Shown one piece after another: positions 4,192-18,906 of a DNA stretch of 20,763 bases. Each line of letters begins with the position of its first letter. Within the stretch, counting starts at the first letter, position 1. The DNA is from a virus: positions 1 through 20,763 of the IMG/VR virus record IMGVR_UViG_3300017971_000854. The stretch is one strand, 5' to 3'. The notes beneath the pieces were generated by a model, which was given only the letters and a program-made list of their open reading frames with translations, was not told the DNA's origin and searched no databases. Both the position numbers and the translations under genes were made by a program.

Positions 4192-4443
4192 TTAAAACGG
4201 CAGGTCGTCTTCCTGCAGCGGCATCTCGAACTGCAGTGTGAGCGGCTCGTGGTCTTCTTCGAAGTAGTCGTTGCGCATGACGTCGTGGTCATCGCCCCCG
4301 CAGCTGGGGCAGGGGATCAACCCGCTGCAGGCGGTCAGTTCAGCTTCAGCGGCAATCGAATCATCGGCAGCGACGTGGGTGGCGGTCAGAATCACGGCTT
4401 CGCACATTACGCAGTAGAGTTCGAAGTTGCTGTAGAGGCTCAT
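4192..4443 (-). CDS. Small zinc-ribbon protein, 83 aa, first gene of the leftward operon
   Basis: Cysteine pairs C11/C14 (CVMC) and C45/C48 (CPSC) frame an alanine- and acid-rich helix, consistent with a zinc ribbon. The C-terminus is very acidic (DYFEEDHEP, QEDDLPF). The start at 4443 follows an AGAGGAG site. The frame remains open upstream as far as 5076 (an ATG at 4671 would give 159 aa), but the upstream part coincides with long RNA-like inverted repeats, lacks a ribosome site and reads as low-quality protein, so it is not included. No leftward promoter is obvious in the next few hundred bases. Function unknown. Confidence 0.75.
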   Translation of the reverse strand: MSLYSNFELYCVMCEAVILTATHVAADDSIAAEAELTACSGLIPCPSCGGDDHDVMRNDYFEEDHEPLTLQFEMPLQEDDLPF

Positions 4444-4483
4444 TCTCGTTCTCCTCTTTGGGGTGGGTTCTGATAGGCAGTGC

Positions 4484-4670
4484 TGACTGCTACTGCTGAT
4501 GCACGGGAGGAGGACACTCATGGCAGGGATTGTCAGCTGAAGAATCCTGTAAAATTGCTTCAATTTTGCGGGATTCTTTGGTTGACAAAGGGGGCGAAAT
4601 TCGGGCTTCCCGAATTTTGCTCCCGGCCCAACATGTGTGTCATCATCGCGGGCATCAGTAGTAGTAGTCA
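4484..4670 (+). repeat. Imperfect palindrome folding as a closed three-way junction
   Basis: Outer arms 4484-4522 and 4632-4670 pair at 34 of 39 positions (32 Watson-Crick, 2 G-U). They continue after a small internal loop with GGGA 4526-4529 against TCCC 4621-4624. Inside are two hairpins. One has arms 4530-4557 and 4561-4588: 28 consecutive pairs, 5 of them G-U, loop CTT. The other has arms 4594-4605 and 4609-4620: 12 pairs, 1 G-U, loop CTT. The helices abut with only 4589-4593 unpaired. Both hairpins carry the same G-CTT-C cap. Counting is by eye. Confidence 0.72.
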
Positions 4671-4679
4671 TTGCGAGGC

Positions 4680-4740
4680 GAGCGGGTGGGGGGACGCTCT
4701 TCGGGTGGGGTGTCGAGCCTGGAGAACTAGAAAGCGACAC
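4680..4740 (+). other. Two short hairpins within the structured region
   Basis: GAGCG 4680-4684 pairs with CGCTC 4695-4699 around a G-rich loop. GTGTCG 4710-4715 pairs with CGACAC 4735-4740, enclosing a second helix CTGG 4719-4722 / CTAG 4727-4730 capped by AGAA with one G-U pair. They lie between the three-way junction and the long hairpin and are probably part of the same folded RNA. Confidence 0.45.
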
Positions 4741-4765
4741 ACAGTGCCTACAGTCTAAAATCCGA

Positions 4766-4842
4766 GCCCGGCGCAGCGGGTTCGCTTTGCGTGTGGTGCA
4801 GTACCCTGTTGTGCTACATCGCGCGGTTCCGCTGTGCCGGGC
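4766..4842 (+). other. 77-nt long hairpin
   Basis: The outer helix pairs 4766-4785 with 4823-4842: 19 of 20 positions pair, with G-U at 4773/4835, 4780/4828 and 4782/4826 and a single T-T mismatch at 4781/4827. After a small internal loop (4786-4790 and 4820-4822) an inner helix pairs 4791-4803 with 4807-4819, with six G-U pairs and a CCC loop. The inner helix is weaker evidence because it depends on G-U pairs. The outer helix is strong on its own. Confidence 0.62.
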
Positions 4843-4855
4843 GGAAACGAGGGGA

Positions 4856-4936
4856 GCGAGCTTGTCGAGCGGACCGAAGTTAGTGCTATCCTCTAACAAG
4901 GTCGCGAGCTTGTCGAGTCGACCGAAGTTACTGCTA
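4856..4936. repeat. 48-bp-period direct repeat, two copies
   Basis: Copies at 4856-4888 and 4904-4936 share GCGAGCTTGTCGAG, then ACCGAAGTTA, then TGCTA, matching at about 30 of 33 bases with a 48-bp offset. Each contains CGA-GCTTG-TCG, which can form a small hairpin. The second copy also has GTCGA-G-TCGAC and can be enclosed by GGTCG/CGACC and TAAC/GTTA helices (4894-4930). The GAGCTTGTCGA core resembles extragenic palindromic repeats seen in some bacterial genomes, but here it fits best as a repeated RNA module or a pair of protein-binding sites. Confidence 0.6.
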
Positions 4937-5009
4937 GATCTGCAGTTGCGGCAGTGACGAATGGACAGCGCGGGGGCTGGGCCTTGCAGAACAGGAGCGA
5001 CAAGCGACG

Positions 5010-5024
5010 GCCCACGGAGTGGGC
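5010..5024 (+). other. Perfect 6-bp hairpin
   Basis: GCCCAC (5010-5015) and GTGGGC (5019-5024) pair around GGA. No T tract follows, so it is not a terminator. It is one of the smaller elements of the structured region. Confidence 0.35.
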
Positions 5025-5161
5025 TTCTGCATGGGCCAGTTTCCGGGCTGGGAATGAGGAACGTGGTGCAGCACATGCTGTCGAACGTGCACCGGGTCTT
5101 GGCCTTATCTAGCTCTGTAGAACGTGCGTGCCCGGCAGCCTAGCCTATTATGGTGCCCCAA

Positions 5162-5433
5162 TACTGAGGTGCTGGCAGTGATGGGGGTTGGTTCTACATC
5201 TGAGTGGGTTCCAGGAGCGATGTAAGTGGTGCTGGTAGCAGTGGGTTAGCATGGAGAGATGGTAGTGCTGGTAGAGATAGGGAGTATAAACCCTTCCAAT
5301 ATAATAACTTATAGCTACTGAGTAATGGTACTGAGTAACATACCTGTACTGTTATGTAGAATGTTACTGAGTTCCCTTCTACAATACTGAGTGTAATGTT
5401 TTGCAATGAGGTACCCCCCTTAAGTTACTGAGT
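5162..5433. repeat. TACTGAGT repeats (iteron or operator-like)
   Basis: The octamer TACTGAGT occurs exactly at 5316, 5329, 5365, 5385 and 5426, always in the same orientation, with a near copy (TACTGAGG) at 5162. The copies at 5316 and 5329 continue as TAA; those at 5365 and 5426 are preceded by GT and followed by T. Spacings are 13, 36, 20 and 41 bases. Same-orientation clustering of a specific word in AT-rich DNA is typical of replication-initiator iterons or clustered operators. No initiator gene is identified here. Confidence 0.65.
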
Positions 5434-5670
5434 TGCTACCCCTATAGCGTCCCCTGGTGACGGATCGATAAAGGTAATTATCTATGTAATTCCATTTCCC
5501 TAATTCCATTTCCCTAATTCCATTTCCCTGAATTAACTTATGTAATTCCATTCCCGTAATTCTATTTCCTTAAACTTAGTTACGTTCTACATATAGGTAA
5601 TTCTAGTAACGTTCTACATTAAAGTAATTATAGTAATTCCAGTAACGTTCTTCATTCTACATCCCCAGTA
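5281..5670. other. Candidate replication origin or divergent control region
   Basis: This AT-rich stretch lies between the leftward operon and the rightward late operon and contrasts with the GC-rich flanks. It holds the three short-repeat families described separately and no credible gene. A 70-codon leftward frame here (5194-5406) crosses the repeats and has no coding character. Repeats plus an AT-rich tract at a divergent junction fit a phage origin or regulatory hub. This is inference. Confidence 0.42.
5487..5570. repeat. TAATTCCATTTCCC tandem repeats
   Basis: Three perfect 14-bp units are contiguous at 5487-5500, 5501-5514 and 5515-5528. Degenerate units follow at 5543-5555 (13 bp) and 5557-5570. 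Related GTAATT words continue at about 5474, 5597, 5622 and 5631. The units are T/C-rich on this strand and AT-rich overall, like the easily melted part of an origin. Confidence 0.75.
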
Positions 5671-5694
5671 CCTCCCCCAATACGCCATTAGCGC

Positions 5695-5735
5695 GCCACG
5701 CGCGTAACGCACGTACGCGCGCGTAAGGGGCTGCC
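5695..5735. other. Alternating purine-pyrimidine CG-rich tract
   Basis: The stretch contains CACGCGCGTA and ACGCACGTACGCGCGCGTAA, mostly alternating purine and pyrimidine with many CG steps and short self-complementary runs. Such DNA can adopt Z-form under negative supercoiling. It sits directly upstream of the late promoter. Confidence 0.4.
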
Positions 5736-5748
5736 GCGATTTTCCCCC

Positions 5749-5777
5749 TTGACGCCCAGCCCCTCCCCAGCTATTCT
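5749..5777 (+). promoter_or_regulatory. Sigma70-like promoter of the late operon
   Basis: TTGACG (5749-5754) and TATTCT (5772-5777) are separated by exactly 17 bases, matching 5 of 6 and 4 of 6 consensus positions. Predicted transcription starts near 5784, leaving a leader of about 155 bases before the small-terminase ATG. AAGGGG (5725-5730) can pair with CCCCTT (5745-5750), overlapping the -35 element. No alternative promoter is seen before 5941. Confidence 0.6.
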
Positions 5778-5896: not shown

Positions 5897-5940
5897 GGGA
5901 AGCGCGACTGGAACCGGCCACACCACCCGGAGGAACGCAA

Positions 5941-6624
5941 ATGGCCGGTAACCGCCGCAAACGCCGCAAACGAGGAATCCTGGCCAATCGGCCCAATCGC
6001 CGACTGACGCCCCTCCAGAAAGAACTCATCATCCAAACCTACGCTGCTTGCGGCTCGAAAGCCCGCACCAGCAAAGAACTTGGGGTGACGGAGAACACAA
6101 TCCGCAACGTGCTGCGGGAGGCCGAAACCGATATTTCCCTCCAGCGAGCTCGCGGCAGAGCCCTGGAGTCCCTGGCCGGGAAAGCCACAGCCGAAGCCGA
6201 ACGGGTGCTGGGCTCCATCGACGACGACGACCTCCAATCCGGCCAATTGCCCACTTACCACTCCAACGGAGCATTCCGCTCGGTCCAGGAAGTTGGACCC
6301 GGATTGCTCGACAAAGCCCGCGCTTTCGGCATTTTCGCCGACAAGGTGGCGGCACTGCAGCAGGCCCGTGCTGCGAATCTCCAGGGTTCCTCCGACACCA
6401 GCCAGCCTGGGGATACGGGTCTGCTGCTGCCCCAATCAGTCGAAGACGCAAAGCGCCAAATCGCCCAGAAAGTGCGACGTCTCCGCATCGTCGACGTGTC
6501 GTTCTCCGAGGGCGAGACCGGACAACGACTCGACGATTTGGCGCGAACCGCGCGGATTACCGACCAGGACATCGAAGAAGCGGATTACGTCCCGTTCGGT
6601 ACTGGACCGGATCCGTTTGATTAA
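5941..6624 (+). CDS. terS: Probable small terminase subunit (DNA-recognition), 227 aa
   Basis: The basic N-terminus (MAGNRRKRRKRG) is followed at residues 23-62 by a helix-turn-helix: LTPLQKELIIQTYAACGS, then ARTSKELGVTENTIRNVLRE. The middle is helical and the C-terminus acidic. Length, HTH and position immediately before the large terminase fit a small terminase subunit, which binds phage DNA as an oligomer and delivers it to the motor. The ATG at 5941 has a GGAGGA site 7-8 bases upstream; a longer in-frame reading beginning at 5749 starts inside the promoter and is rejected. The functional call relies on context plus HTH, since small terminases diverge strongly. Confidence 0.8.
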   Translation: MAGNRRKRRKRGILANRPNRRLTPLQKELIIQTYAACGSKARTSKELGVTENTIRNVLREAETDISLQRARGRALESLAGKATAEAERVLGSIDDDDLQSGQLPTYHSNGAFRSVQEVGPGLLDKARAFGIFADKVAALQQARAANLQGSSDTSQPGDTGLLLPQSVEDAKRQIAQKVRRLRIVDVSFSEGETGQRLDDLARTARITDQDIEEADYVPFGTGPDPFD

Positions 6625-6713: not shown

Positions 6714-6857
6714 ATGGAGCCGCTGATCGACTGGACAGCATTCTTTGACGGCCTGAGCGACTTCATGCTGAAAGTTGGTTGGTGGAACGCCGCGCTCGCA
6801 AGTGCGGCGTTGATCGTTTGGAAGCACGGCTATCCGTGGCGTAAGGACAAGCCATGA
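6714..6857 (+). CDS. Small membrane protein, 47 aa
   Basis: A short frame reads MEPLIDWTAFFDGL, then a hydrophobic segment at about residues 19-36 (KVGWWNAALASAALIVWK), then a basic tail (WRKDKP). It has a CGGAG site about 8 bases before the ATG and its stop overlaps the large-terminase start (ATGA), strong evidence of translation. A single membrane segment with basic C-terminus is compatible with a holin-like or other membrane-associated peptide, but nothing identifies its role. Confidence 0.68.
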   Translation: MEPLIDWTAFFDGLSDFMLKVGWWNAALASAALIVWKHGYPWRKDKP

Positions 6858-8449
6858 CGTCCCTGACCGGTGCGCACACGCTGCAAGAACTCCACGAGAT
6901 CCTCCTGGAGTTGCACCGGTACGAGCAGGCGTTCCAGCAACAGAAGATCGTGTTCTTCAAGCCGAACCCCCAAGGCCAGCAGGAAGACTTCTTCGAAGCT
7001 CAGACGAGCACAGTGCGCCTCGTTCTCGGCTCTAACCGCTCCGGCAAGTCCGTCGTCGGCTGCATGGAAGCGATCTCGCACGCACTGGGATTTCGCCCCT
7101 GGTACCCCGAAGACCACCCACTGCGCGTTGTGCGGCTCTCGGACGGCAATCCGATCCCGGTGCCGAACGTAGGACGCATCATCGCCCAGAACTTCGAACA
7201 AGCCATTCGCCAGACCATCATGGAGAAGCTGCGCGAATGGATGCCGCACGGCATCGTCAAGAACACCGAGAAGAACACACGCGGCATCACAACGTGCTAC
7301 AATCTCTACAACGGCTCCAAAATCTACCTGATGTCGAACGATCAGGACGATATGGCGTTTGAGGGACCAAACGGCCACTGGTTCTGGGCAGACGAGCCGA
7401 TCGACTACCGCAAGTACACCGGACTCAAGCGTGGCCTCGTTGACTTCAACGGCCACTGCTGGATGACCATGACGCCGTTGTCCCAGCCGTGGATCAACGA
7501 TGTGATCGTTCGACGTGCCAATGAGCCAGATTCCGGCGTGACGATGTTCAAGTTCTCCGTTTGGGACAATTGCATTGAAAACGGCGGACATCTGTCGCGT
7601 GCTGCAATCGAGGAGTTTTTGGCCGATTTGCGCGAAGATGAGCTTGAAGCACGTCTGCACGCACGTTTTCTGCATCTGGCCGGTCTCGTCTACAAAACCT
7701 GGGAACCTCGCCCGCCATATTGGATCGACCCGTACGAAATCCCCGACAGCTGGCCACGGGTGCAATTTGTCGATCCGCACGGACGCAAGCCGCTTGCCCT
7801 CATGTGGGCAGCCGTATCGCCGGAGAACCAACTCGTCGTGTACCGCTCCGTGTTCAAACGTGAGTTGCGCACGGTGGCGCAGGCGGCTTCGTACATCAAG
7901 CACGTAGAAGGTTGGGGCGAGAACGACATCGCTCCGCCAGTCGAAGCAGAAAACGTGGTGCTGCGCATCATCGACTGGTCGGCTGAAGAAGAAGAACGTA
8001 CCTCCGGCACCTCTATTCGCACCAAATTTGCCGAACACAACCTGTTCTACGTCAAAGCGAAGAAGCACAACTCCGCGTACGGCTACGACGCTATCCACGA
8101 AGCTCTGCGGATGCCGGACTACGAATGGTCCCAGCCGGGTATGGTGGTGTTCAACACCTGTCACGATGTGAAGCAGAACTTCATGAACTTCTGCTACGAC
8201 GAGCACCAGTCGTCGCGGCAACGCGACATCAAGGGCGAGAAAGAGTCGTATGTGAAGAACAACGACGATTTCATCGATCTGATCCGTTATTACTACCAGC
8301 ACCGGCTCACGTACAACATGCTTGCTCGCGAATCGCGCAAGATGTACGATGCACGCGACAAGTGGGAAGAGAAGCAGCTGGAGTCGGCTGGTAACTCGTT
8401 GTTCAAGCGTCCCGGCGTACATACCGGGTACGGCGCAGGAGGATACTGA
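6854..8449 (+). CDS. terL: Terminase large subunit, 531 aa
   Basis: This is the ATP-driven DNA-packaging motor and headful or site-specific nuclease. The Walker A motif is GSNRSGKS (residues 59-66) and Walker B is FWADE (177-181), followed by a WMTMTPLSQ coupling-type segment near 203-211. The C-terminal RNase H-like nuclease shows candidate metal ligands D307 (FVDPHGRKP), D374 (RIIDWSAEE) and the DDFIDLIRYY segment (D471, D472, D475). Length is typical of the family. It overlaps the 47-aa membrane gene by 4 bp and its stop overlaps the next ATG, so packaging and head genes are one transcript. Confidence 0.96.
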   Translation: MTSLTGAHTLQELHEILLELHRYEQAFQQQKIVFFKPNPQGQQEDFFEAQTSTVRLVLGSNRSGKSVVGCMEAISHALGFRPWYPEDHPLRVVRLSDGNPIPVPNVGRIIAQNFEQAIRQTIMEKLREWMPHGIVKNTEKNTRGITTCYNLYNGSKIYLMSNDQDDMAFEGPNGHWFWADEPIDYRKYTGLKRGLVDFNGHCWMTMTPLSQPWINDVIVRRANEPDSGVTMFKFSVWDNCIENGGHLSRAAIEEFLADLREDELEARLHARFLHLAGLVYKTWEPRPPYWIDPYEIPDSWPRVQFVDPHGRKPLALMWAAVSPENQLVVYRSVFKRELRTVAQAASYIKHVEGWGENDIAPPVEAENVVLRIIDWSAEEEERTSGTSIRTKFAEHNLFYVKAKKHNSAYGYDAIHEALRMPDYEWSQPGMVVFNTCHDVKQNFMNFCYDEHQSSRQRDIKGEKESYVKNNDDFIDLIRYYYQHRLTYNMLARESRKMYDARDKWEEKQLESAGNSLFKRPGVHTGYGAGGY

Positions 8450-16647: not shown

Positions 16648-18906
16648 ATGGCAACGTTTTGGGTCAGTACCTCTGGTGACGATGGCAATGCCGGTACTAC
16701 GTACGGTACCGCCAAGGCTACGCTCAAGGGCGCGCTCCTGATAGCAAGCCAGGGCGATACGGTTAACATGGTCAACGACGGAGTGCACGATGCGTATTCG
16801 TCGACTGATCGTGGTGCCGTAACCAATTCATTTATTGGCACCGACTTTGACACCGACCCAGCTATTATTATCCAGGGTACTGACTCAAGCGGAAATCCTG
16901 CCGTTACCACCATCGCGGCTGGTCCGACCAATACGTTCTTCGTAGTGATTGCATGGTTGGCGGCATACACGGTTATCCGAGGCTTGAAGTTCGACTACAG
17001 TGCGTTGGCCACGACGGCTGTTACAAGCCAGCAGCCTATTTACTGCAACGGACAGGTCGCCAGCATCAAGATAACCGAGTGCCAGTTCTGGGGAACATCG
17101 GCGCTGGGCGACTCTATTACTAACAGTAGTCTGCTCACAGCACCGATCTTCCTTGGTGCTTCTGCTGGAAATACGGCCGATCACGAGTTCGAAGTATCGT
17201 ATTGCTTGTTTGTCAACTGCAATGTGCGTATGCCTGGAGTTGGTCGTCTAGGACATAACTTTCATCACAATATCCTCATCAACGATGCAGACACTAGCTC
17301 TAACCTGTTCAACCTCAACATCCCATTCGGCACGTCGCTGTATAACAGGTACTACAACAACACTATTATCCAGAAATCCTACGATACGGAAGAAGCTAAA
17401 AGTATTATAACCGTAGCTGGCAACAACACAACGTTCGCTGCCTTCCACAGCAACTTCTTCTATGTAGACGCCGGTACAGCGGCAGGTGATGTCGATACAT
17501 TTTCTGGTCCAGTGCAAGCTGGCTACGTAGCCGCTACACAGACCACCAGCGTTATCACTATGGGCTATGACGCGTTCGTGTTCGGCCCCAATATCGCACC
17601 TGATTTCGGCAGTTGGGGTGCCAGTGATGGCTACGGTTCATATCAGTTCTCGCCAACGTGGAGGGCTGGAGGAGCCAACGACACGACTACACTGGAGCCG
17701 ACGTCGGTGTCTACGTTCAGCCAAACGTATGGAGACGTGTTTAACGATACGGCCAGCACATACCTGTGGGACACCGGCGACTACAGTGTAGTTCTGCCAT
17801 TTGATCTGCGGCCGACATTCGCGCGCGACGTGGGCCTTGACGGCAGGGCGGCTGGCGCATTGGCTGACGGACTCAACCTGTTGCCCGTCGTATCTGACTG
17901 GAACGGATTCTTTGACCGGCTGGAAGTGGTGGTTGGCGATACAGTGTCGGTGACGGCTGGTGACGGATTAGATACGTGCTGCTCCGATCCAGATGGCGAC
18001 ACGCTAACCTACAACGTGGTCGACGACGTGACCCACGGTTCGCTGACGTTGAACTCCAACGGGTCATTCTCATACACACCCAACACCACGTACGTTGGGT
18101 ACGACGCATTCTCGTTTGAGGCATGTGACGGCACCACCTGCATATCCGTCATTCCGGACAGTAGCACTAACCCGCAGGTGTACTTGTTCGTCAGCAATGC
18201 CACGCCGGTGATCGATAGCACGCTGTCGTACACTGTTAATCAGGGGCAAGTGTTGAGCGCCACTGCGGGTGCTGGGCTTCTGAGCAATGCTACAGACCCC
18301 GAAGGACTGACGCTAGTAGCAACAAACCTATCTACTCCCGCGCACGGCAGCGTGACTTTCAGCCAGACTACGGGAGCATTCACATACACGCCCAACACGT
18401 GGTTCGCTGGGAACGATTCATTCACATATCAGGTGTCGGACGGGGCCAATACGGCTGATGGGTCCGTGCTTATACAGGTGTTGCCGGTGGAGTCGCCTGA
18501 TGATCCTACGGTGCTCATCGATTCGTTCCCGTTCTTCAGGCCAGTACTCAAGGGGTATGCGTCGTCGCAAGTTCGTATTCAGCGTAATACGAACCGTGGG
18601 TACATTGATCGTCGGCACTATCTGGATGAGACATTCTGGAATGAGTCTACTGTCAGGTATCTCCAGGTGGATGCTGCAAGCAACGTGACCATGACGTTGG
18701 GTGGGGTGGCTGAAACACAAGCTCTAATGCTGCAGACGGACCAGCAACTGGCGGTGACGGTGGTGTGGAATACAGACTCCGGCACTGATTCCTTCCAAGC
18801 TACTGTCGAGGGATGCATGATGTTCGATCAAGCGCCCATCTCTAGTCTGAATGTGAGTAACACGGCGTCGACTACGGCGAACGTGCACCTGACGGTGTTT
18901 GAGTAA
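16648..18906 (+). CDS. Beta-helix tail spike/fibre-like protein with cadherin-like repeats, 752 aa
   Basis: The N-terminus FWVSTSGDDGNAGTTYGTAK plus LLIASQGDTV is the typical opening of right-handed beta-helix (pectate-lyase-like) proteins; repeated short strands continue to about residue 350. Residues about 430-512 and 515-612 are two copies of a cadherin-like (tandem-95/Big_9-type) domain, each with DPDGDTLTY or DPEGLTL, a GS[LV]T segment, [SA]FTYTPN and a final F-x-x-xSDG. The C-terminal 130 residues are unassigned. It is probably an adhesin or spike that contacts the host surface or its glycans. Codons include more A/T-ending choices than neighbours, suggesting recent exchange. The ATG follows the previous stop by 3 bases with a weak GGGAG site. 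Confidence 0.85.
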   Translation: MATFWVSTSGDDGNAGTTYGTAKATLKGALLIASQGDTVNMVNDGVHDAYSSTDRGAVTNSFIGTDFDTDPAIIIQGTDSSGNPAVTTIAAGPTNTFFVVIAWLAAYTVIRGLKFDYSALATTAVTSQQPIYCNGQVASIKITECQFWGTSALGDSITNSSLLTAPIFLGASAGNTADHEFEVSYCLFVNCNVRMPGVGRLGHNFHHNILINDADTSSNLFNLNIPFGTSLYNRYYNNTIIQKSYDTEEAKSIITVAGNNTTFAAFHSNFFYVDAGTAAGDVDTFSGPVQAGYVAATQTTSVITMGYDAFVFGPNIAPDFGSWGASDGYGSYQFSPTWRAGGANDTTTLEPTSVSTFSQTYGDVFNDTASTYLWDTGDYSVVLPFDLRPTFARDVGLDGRAAGALADGLNLLPVVSDWNGFFDRLEVVVGDTVSVTAGDGLDTCCSDPDGDTLTYNVVDDVTHGSLTLNSNGSFSYTPNTTYVGYDAFSFEACDGTTCISVIPDSSTNPQVYLFVSNATPVIDSTLSYTVNQGQVLSATAGAGLLSNATDPEGLTLVATNLSTPAHGSVTFSQTTGAFTYTPNTWFAGNDSFTYQVSDGANTADGSVLIQVLPVESPDDPTVLIDSFPFFRPVLKGYASSQVRIQRNTNRGYIDRRHYLDETFWNESTVRYLQVDAASNVTMTLGGVAETQALMLQTDQQLAVTVVWNTDSGTDSFQATVEGCMMFDQAPISSLNVSNTASTTANVHLTVFE

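Follow-up and report, generated by a model that had tools for sequence, protein, structure and literature searches.

An uncultured phage group keeps a palindrome-rich, AT-rich noncoding tract at one divergent gene junction despite complete sequence turnover, and we propose that this junction is a hypervariable cis-acting DNA hub, most likely working at the DNA level as a replication origin and/or divergent-promoter region, a reading to which we assign a probability of about one half. The DNA examined is a 20,763-base virus record from IMG/VR (IMGVR_UViG_3300017971_000854; "the window" denotes this whole record), in which a preliminary description had picked out 4480-5100 as a candidate large noncoding RNA comparable to GOLLD and ROOL. 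A GOLLD/ROOL-type RNA seems to us less likely than a rapidly evolving DNA control region, possibly an origin of replication, to which the segment would belong; it would make up the left half of a 1.3-kb hub between a leftward operon and the rightward terminase and structural genes. If the junction is an origin or switch, a control site can hold its architecture without holding its sequence; were it transcribed, the product would be a phage RNA of a new kind.

The leftward operon starts at 4443, the noncoding tract occupies 4444-5748, longer than the 4480-5100 noted earlier, and the rightward genes beyond it include the terminase large subunit (TerL), followed by a portal protein that matches an SU10-type Pfam family (Table 1). 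The segment does lie at a divergent junction, as first described, and the absence of a credible gene was likewise upheld, since throughout 4444-5748 no Pfam, PHROG or tblastn homologue was found and codon log-odds were negative whichever frame was read. A minus-strand frame in register with the first leftward gene does stay open for 232 codons (4444-5076), a length reached by 0 of 500 shuffles, and its codon usage is noncoding-like; together with the lack of homologues, this rules against a protein-coding reading of the palindromes. Both strands of the palindrome at 4481-4675 yield look-alike peptides (TDAREEDTH/TDARDDDTH, KNPVKLLQF/KNPAKLKQF and GAKFGLPEF/GAKFGKPEF), and 10 of its 14 non-Watson-Crick positions share a single codon phase (p ~0.012).

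Table 1. Features at and around the divergent junction (window coordinates; energies in kcal/mol).
Feature	Position	Strand	Remarks
First leftward gene	4192-4443	-	Cys-rich; weak, sub-threshold similarity to Lar restriction-alleviation proteins (159-aa read-through query)
Outer stem of three-way junction	4481-4528/4627-4675	+	40 pairs
28-bp hairpin	4530-4588	+	3-nt loop CUU; five G.U pairs, zero A.C; z -10.7
16-bp hairpin	4590-4624	+	3-nt loop CUU; two G.U pairs; z -5.3
77-nt hairpin	4766-4842	+	-53.8, z -7.0 (+); -38.8, z -4.4 (-)
33-nt direct repeat, two copies	4856-4888, 4904-4936		48 nt apart; 91% identical; no excess folding
85-nt branched hairpin	4966-5050	+	-53.0, z -6.2 (+); -37.0, z -3.1 (-)
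G-rich degenerate repeats (GGTGCTGG...), three copies	5168-5281		repeat family D4
Iteron-like cluster, TACTGAGT x5	5316-5433	+	at 5316, 5329, 5365, 5385 and 5426
14-nt tandem repeat TAATTCCATTTCCC	5487-5573		most AT-rich stretch, 29% GC
27-nt repeats with AACGTTCTACAT	5577-5657		contain two of the four TGTAGAAC words
Sigma-70-like site ATGAAG-17-TATAAT	5627-5655	-	best in window; faces leftward genes; consensus match only
Sigma-70-like site TTGACG-17-TATTCT	5749-5777	+	ahead of terminase genes; consensus match only
First rightward gene	5938-6624	+	HTH protein; likely small terminase by position
Terminase large subunit (TerL)	6854-8449	+	query used to find relatives

The strong structure first described in the segment was borne out, as three foldbacks (4481-4679, 4766-4842 and 4966-5050) each fold better than all 200 of the dinucleotide shuffles against which z-scores were calculated. 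The three-way junction is present on the top strand of 4481-4679, with a minimum free energy of -124.4 kcal/mol against -60.8 +/- 4.2 for its shuffles (z -15.2; bottom strand, -83.9), and a scan of all 20.8 kb placed the strongest-folding 160-nt window of the record at 4481-4640. Its outer stem is interrupted by five 1x1 mismatches (4503, 4506, 4509, 4512 and 4518), the first four spaced 3 bases apart. The 77-nt hairpin was recovered with the exact limits given in Table 1. The "repeated hairpin modules" of the preliminary description survive in part: the repeat exists, as a 33-nt direct repeat, and it folds like its shuffles (z -0.8), so that the modules are repeats and not hairpins. The outer stem with its long hairpin had also prompted a retron reading, which was dropped when no adjoining reverse transcriptase was recognised.

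To the right of the foldbacks the tract changes character. All five copies of TACTGAGT in the window lie within 118 bases of one another at the junction, where 0.35 would be expected window-wide, and the tandem arrays beyond them lie in the most AT-rich DNA of the window (GC minimum of 29% at 5481). The two TGTAGAAC words outside the 27-nt repeats lie at 5116 and 5191; this word occurs inside the junction in 4/4 copies in the window and in 2/2 and 1/1 copies in its nearest relatives (L002 and L003), and nowhere else in these three. The best promoter-like sites, which are matches to consensus only, flank or lie within the AT-rich part and point outward. In phage and plasmid replication origins of the iteron type, direct repeats cluster next to AT-rich DNA, and the junction shows this arrangement (TACTGAGT x5, tandem arrays, 29% GC). 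The hub would thus be ordered as large palindromes (4481-5050), G-rich repeats and then iteron-like repeats with the AT-rich tract (5316-5657), and promoter-like sites would point outward from it in both directions; proteins may bind the iteron-like repeats, the AT-rich tract may melt, and the palindromes may extrude or serve as roadblocks or recombination points. Such a hub may be an origin. The junction resembles phage and plasmid origins in its repeat clusters, AT-rich tract, palindromes and place between divergent operons; it differs in that neither an initiator gene nor a known origin motif was found and in that a large three-way-junction palindrome is not usual there. The leftward proteins and the relatives' neighbouring proteins gave no informative family match that would point to an initiator.

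We then compared the junction with that of related phages, found through TerL as dozens of uncultured phages and one short bacterial MAG contig; the small-terminase-like protein, the protein encoded at 1433-2038 and three DNA patterns, used as queries against viral contigs, returned zero relatives. Some two dozen of the TerL relatives likewise carry a noncoding tract at the corresponding divergent junction. Palindrome arm length is more than double that of shuffled sequence in 17 of 23 relatives, and in 19 of 24 loci (the window counted) no other stretch is as AT-rich as the tract, these counts being approximate because junction limits were set by hand from open reading frames. The tracts are filled with phage-specific repeats and palindromes, and neither sequence nor fold is common to the relatives: blastn found no significant match between the junction DNA and theirs, and the junction sequence had no match in phages and plasmids. 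In three of the six long records (G004, G005 and G007) the strongest fold of the record lies within the tract, and in G001 folds there rank 2-5, while in G002 and G003 the strongest fold lies away from the junction. Junctions crowded with CTAG-containing palindromic repeats were seen at L017:3990-4530, L027:2230-2500, L005:3200-3500 and L018:3680-4150, with 22 CTAG in one 500-base bin of G001, and the hairpin TGTCCTAAAAACAGGACACTAA is common to L018 and L059.

Because the common denominator of these junctions is architecture (position, palindromes, repeats and AT-rich tract) and not sequence or fold, a DNA origin or divergent control region fits better than a conserved RNA. Also favouring the DNA hub, five of six relatives (G001, G002, G003, G004 and G007) have the minimum of their cumulative GC skew, raw or detrended, no more than about 2 kb from the junction, an origin-like pattern that is confounded with divergent gene orientation; L039 and L050 (79% identical) differ in the copy number of a palindromic repeat at the junction; and mismatches in the palindrome arms of the pooled relatives show no strand preference (61 G.T : 55 A.C). 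Against it stand the window's own mismatches (14 G.T : 1 A.C), a bias not predicted if the region acts purely as DNA, the lack of a recognised initiator protein, the strongest folds of G002 and G003, the lack of a skew minimum at the junction of the window itself, and the junctions of L002 and L003, which have no strong palindromes; these two contigs begin inside the tract, and their equivalent of 4481-5050 may be missing.

A strong predicted fold in a single genome is insufficient for assignment to the GOLLD/ROOL-like RNAs, and the comparisons gave no ground for the membership first suggested. Rfam cmscan, run on the window with E up to 1 and on 4440-5760 with E up to 10, returned at the junction only miRNA hairpin models, rejected with scores far under their cut-offs; a structure model of the core fold (R1) found the window alone among 47 sources (658 kb, ~0.66 Mb); and the window contains no tRNA, let alone a tRNA array. 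GOLLD and ROOL occur in phages and prophages with conserved structures, often, though not obligatorily, near tRNA islands (PMC12286853). The junction shares with GOLLD, ROOL and OLE a size range and many helices; it differs in having no covariance match, in its long near-perfect palindromes and in a sequence and fold not kept in relatives, and no feature of these three RNAs was found in it. Since the helices are not conserved, with zero homologues of the core fold among the relatives, a result that the preliminary description had itself named as telling against the idea, the large-RNA reading is not established.

A possible, though somewhat unlikely, alternative is a lineage-specific structured RNA transcribed from the top strand of about 4480-5050, with three domains, serving as a protein-binding decoy, as an antisense over the start of the leftward operon or as a long leader. 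Its best evidence is the strand signal. Although inverted repeats were sought with a scoring that treats G.T and A.C alike, the arms in the window carry 14 G.T against 1 A.C mismatches (p ~0.004 against base composition), and because of this excess each of the three elements is more stable as RNA of the top strand (z -15.2, -7.0 and -6.2, versus -9.05, -4.35 and -3.1 on the bottom strand); G.U content has been used as a strand guide before, for the L17 downstream element (PMC2864571). This evidence is weakened by the pooled ratio in the relatives, where single phages lean to either strand and other junctions favour neither consistently, and by the possibility that strand-biased C-to-T mutation yielded the G.T, on a strand that is already G- and T-rich. 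In the alignment of L039 and L050 either strand can fold and the pair-preserving changes are similar for the two, so that it does not separate RNA from DNA; the near-identical pairs L027/L029, L006/L008 and L033/L034 hold too few differences for a pairing test.

Top-strand RNAs do occur in the group's neighbourhood, between junction and terminase: L017:4772-4976 (+) is a manA RNA (RF01745, 65.2 bits) that lies within the junction, ahead of the terminase genes, and L039 and L050 carry a tRNA-Met and tRNA-Ile pair between junction and TerL (L039:1913-2070 and L050:6871-7065, +), the only two relatives with tRNAs nearby. The manA family has been described in marine metagenomes, cyanophages and gamma-proteobacteria (PMC2864571). 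It is a genuine family of structured RNAs, here present at the corresponding junction of a relative; the window has no match to it. Also against a top-strand transcript, a consensus scan found no good plus-strand promoter ahead of 4480, no plus-strand terminator was found that would frame a transcript from the hairpins, and the fold has no homologue in relatives. The bolder form of this idea, a new phage RNA class in which a three-domain top-strand RNA (4480-5050) is built around a rigid, T-shaped three-way junction whose helices are nearly perfect, and other members of the group have foldback RNAs of their own in this place, equivalent to it but not related, we think unlikely.

Two further readings strike us as improbable. 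The hairpins might belong to a long 5' leader of the leftward operon, starting from promoters at ~5627-5655 or 5298-5326 and forming on the bottom strand an attenuator or mRNA-stability element; the window's best minus-strand sigma-70-like sites do sit to the right of the hairpins, minus-strand folding is still beyond chance, and the minus frame in register with the first leftward gene has its 232 open codons, but the wobble mismatches favour the opposite strand 14:1, the codon usage of the frame is noncoding-like, and the promoters are consensus matches only. Alternatively, and with as slim a chance, the palindromes could be inserted mobile or decaying REP/MITE-like repeats without function for the phage, as the hypervariable content, the 33-nt direct repeat and the short repeat words CGAGGCGAGCGG and GCCTACAGTCTA, which L003 shares with the window in opposite orientation and altered order, might suggest. 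Palindromes of this group, however, always lie at the same junction, and no further copy was found in the window, in viral contigs (three exact patterns) or in phages and plasmids (near or exact matches only). REP-type palindromic repeats (e.g. PMC3733652) are likewise noncoding and palindromic, but the foldback of the window is much larger, single-copy and phage-borne.

Two minor observations concern other parts of these genomes. At 17079-17165 (+) of the window, within a structural gene, a hairpin matches the mir-2024 miRNA model below threshold (E 0.0086), probably by chance. In L024 (7244-8730), the TerL frame is split into three overlapping pieces, reflecting frameshifts or sequencing errors.
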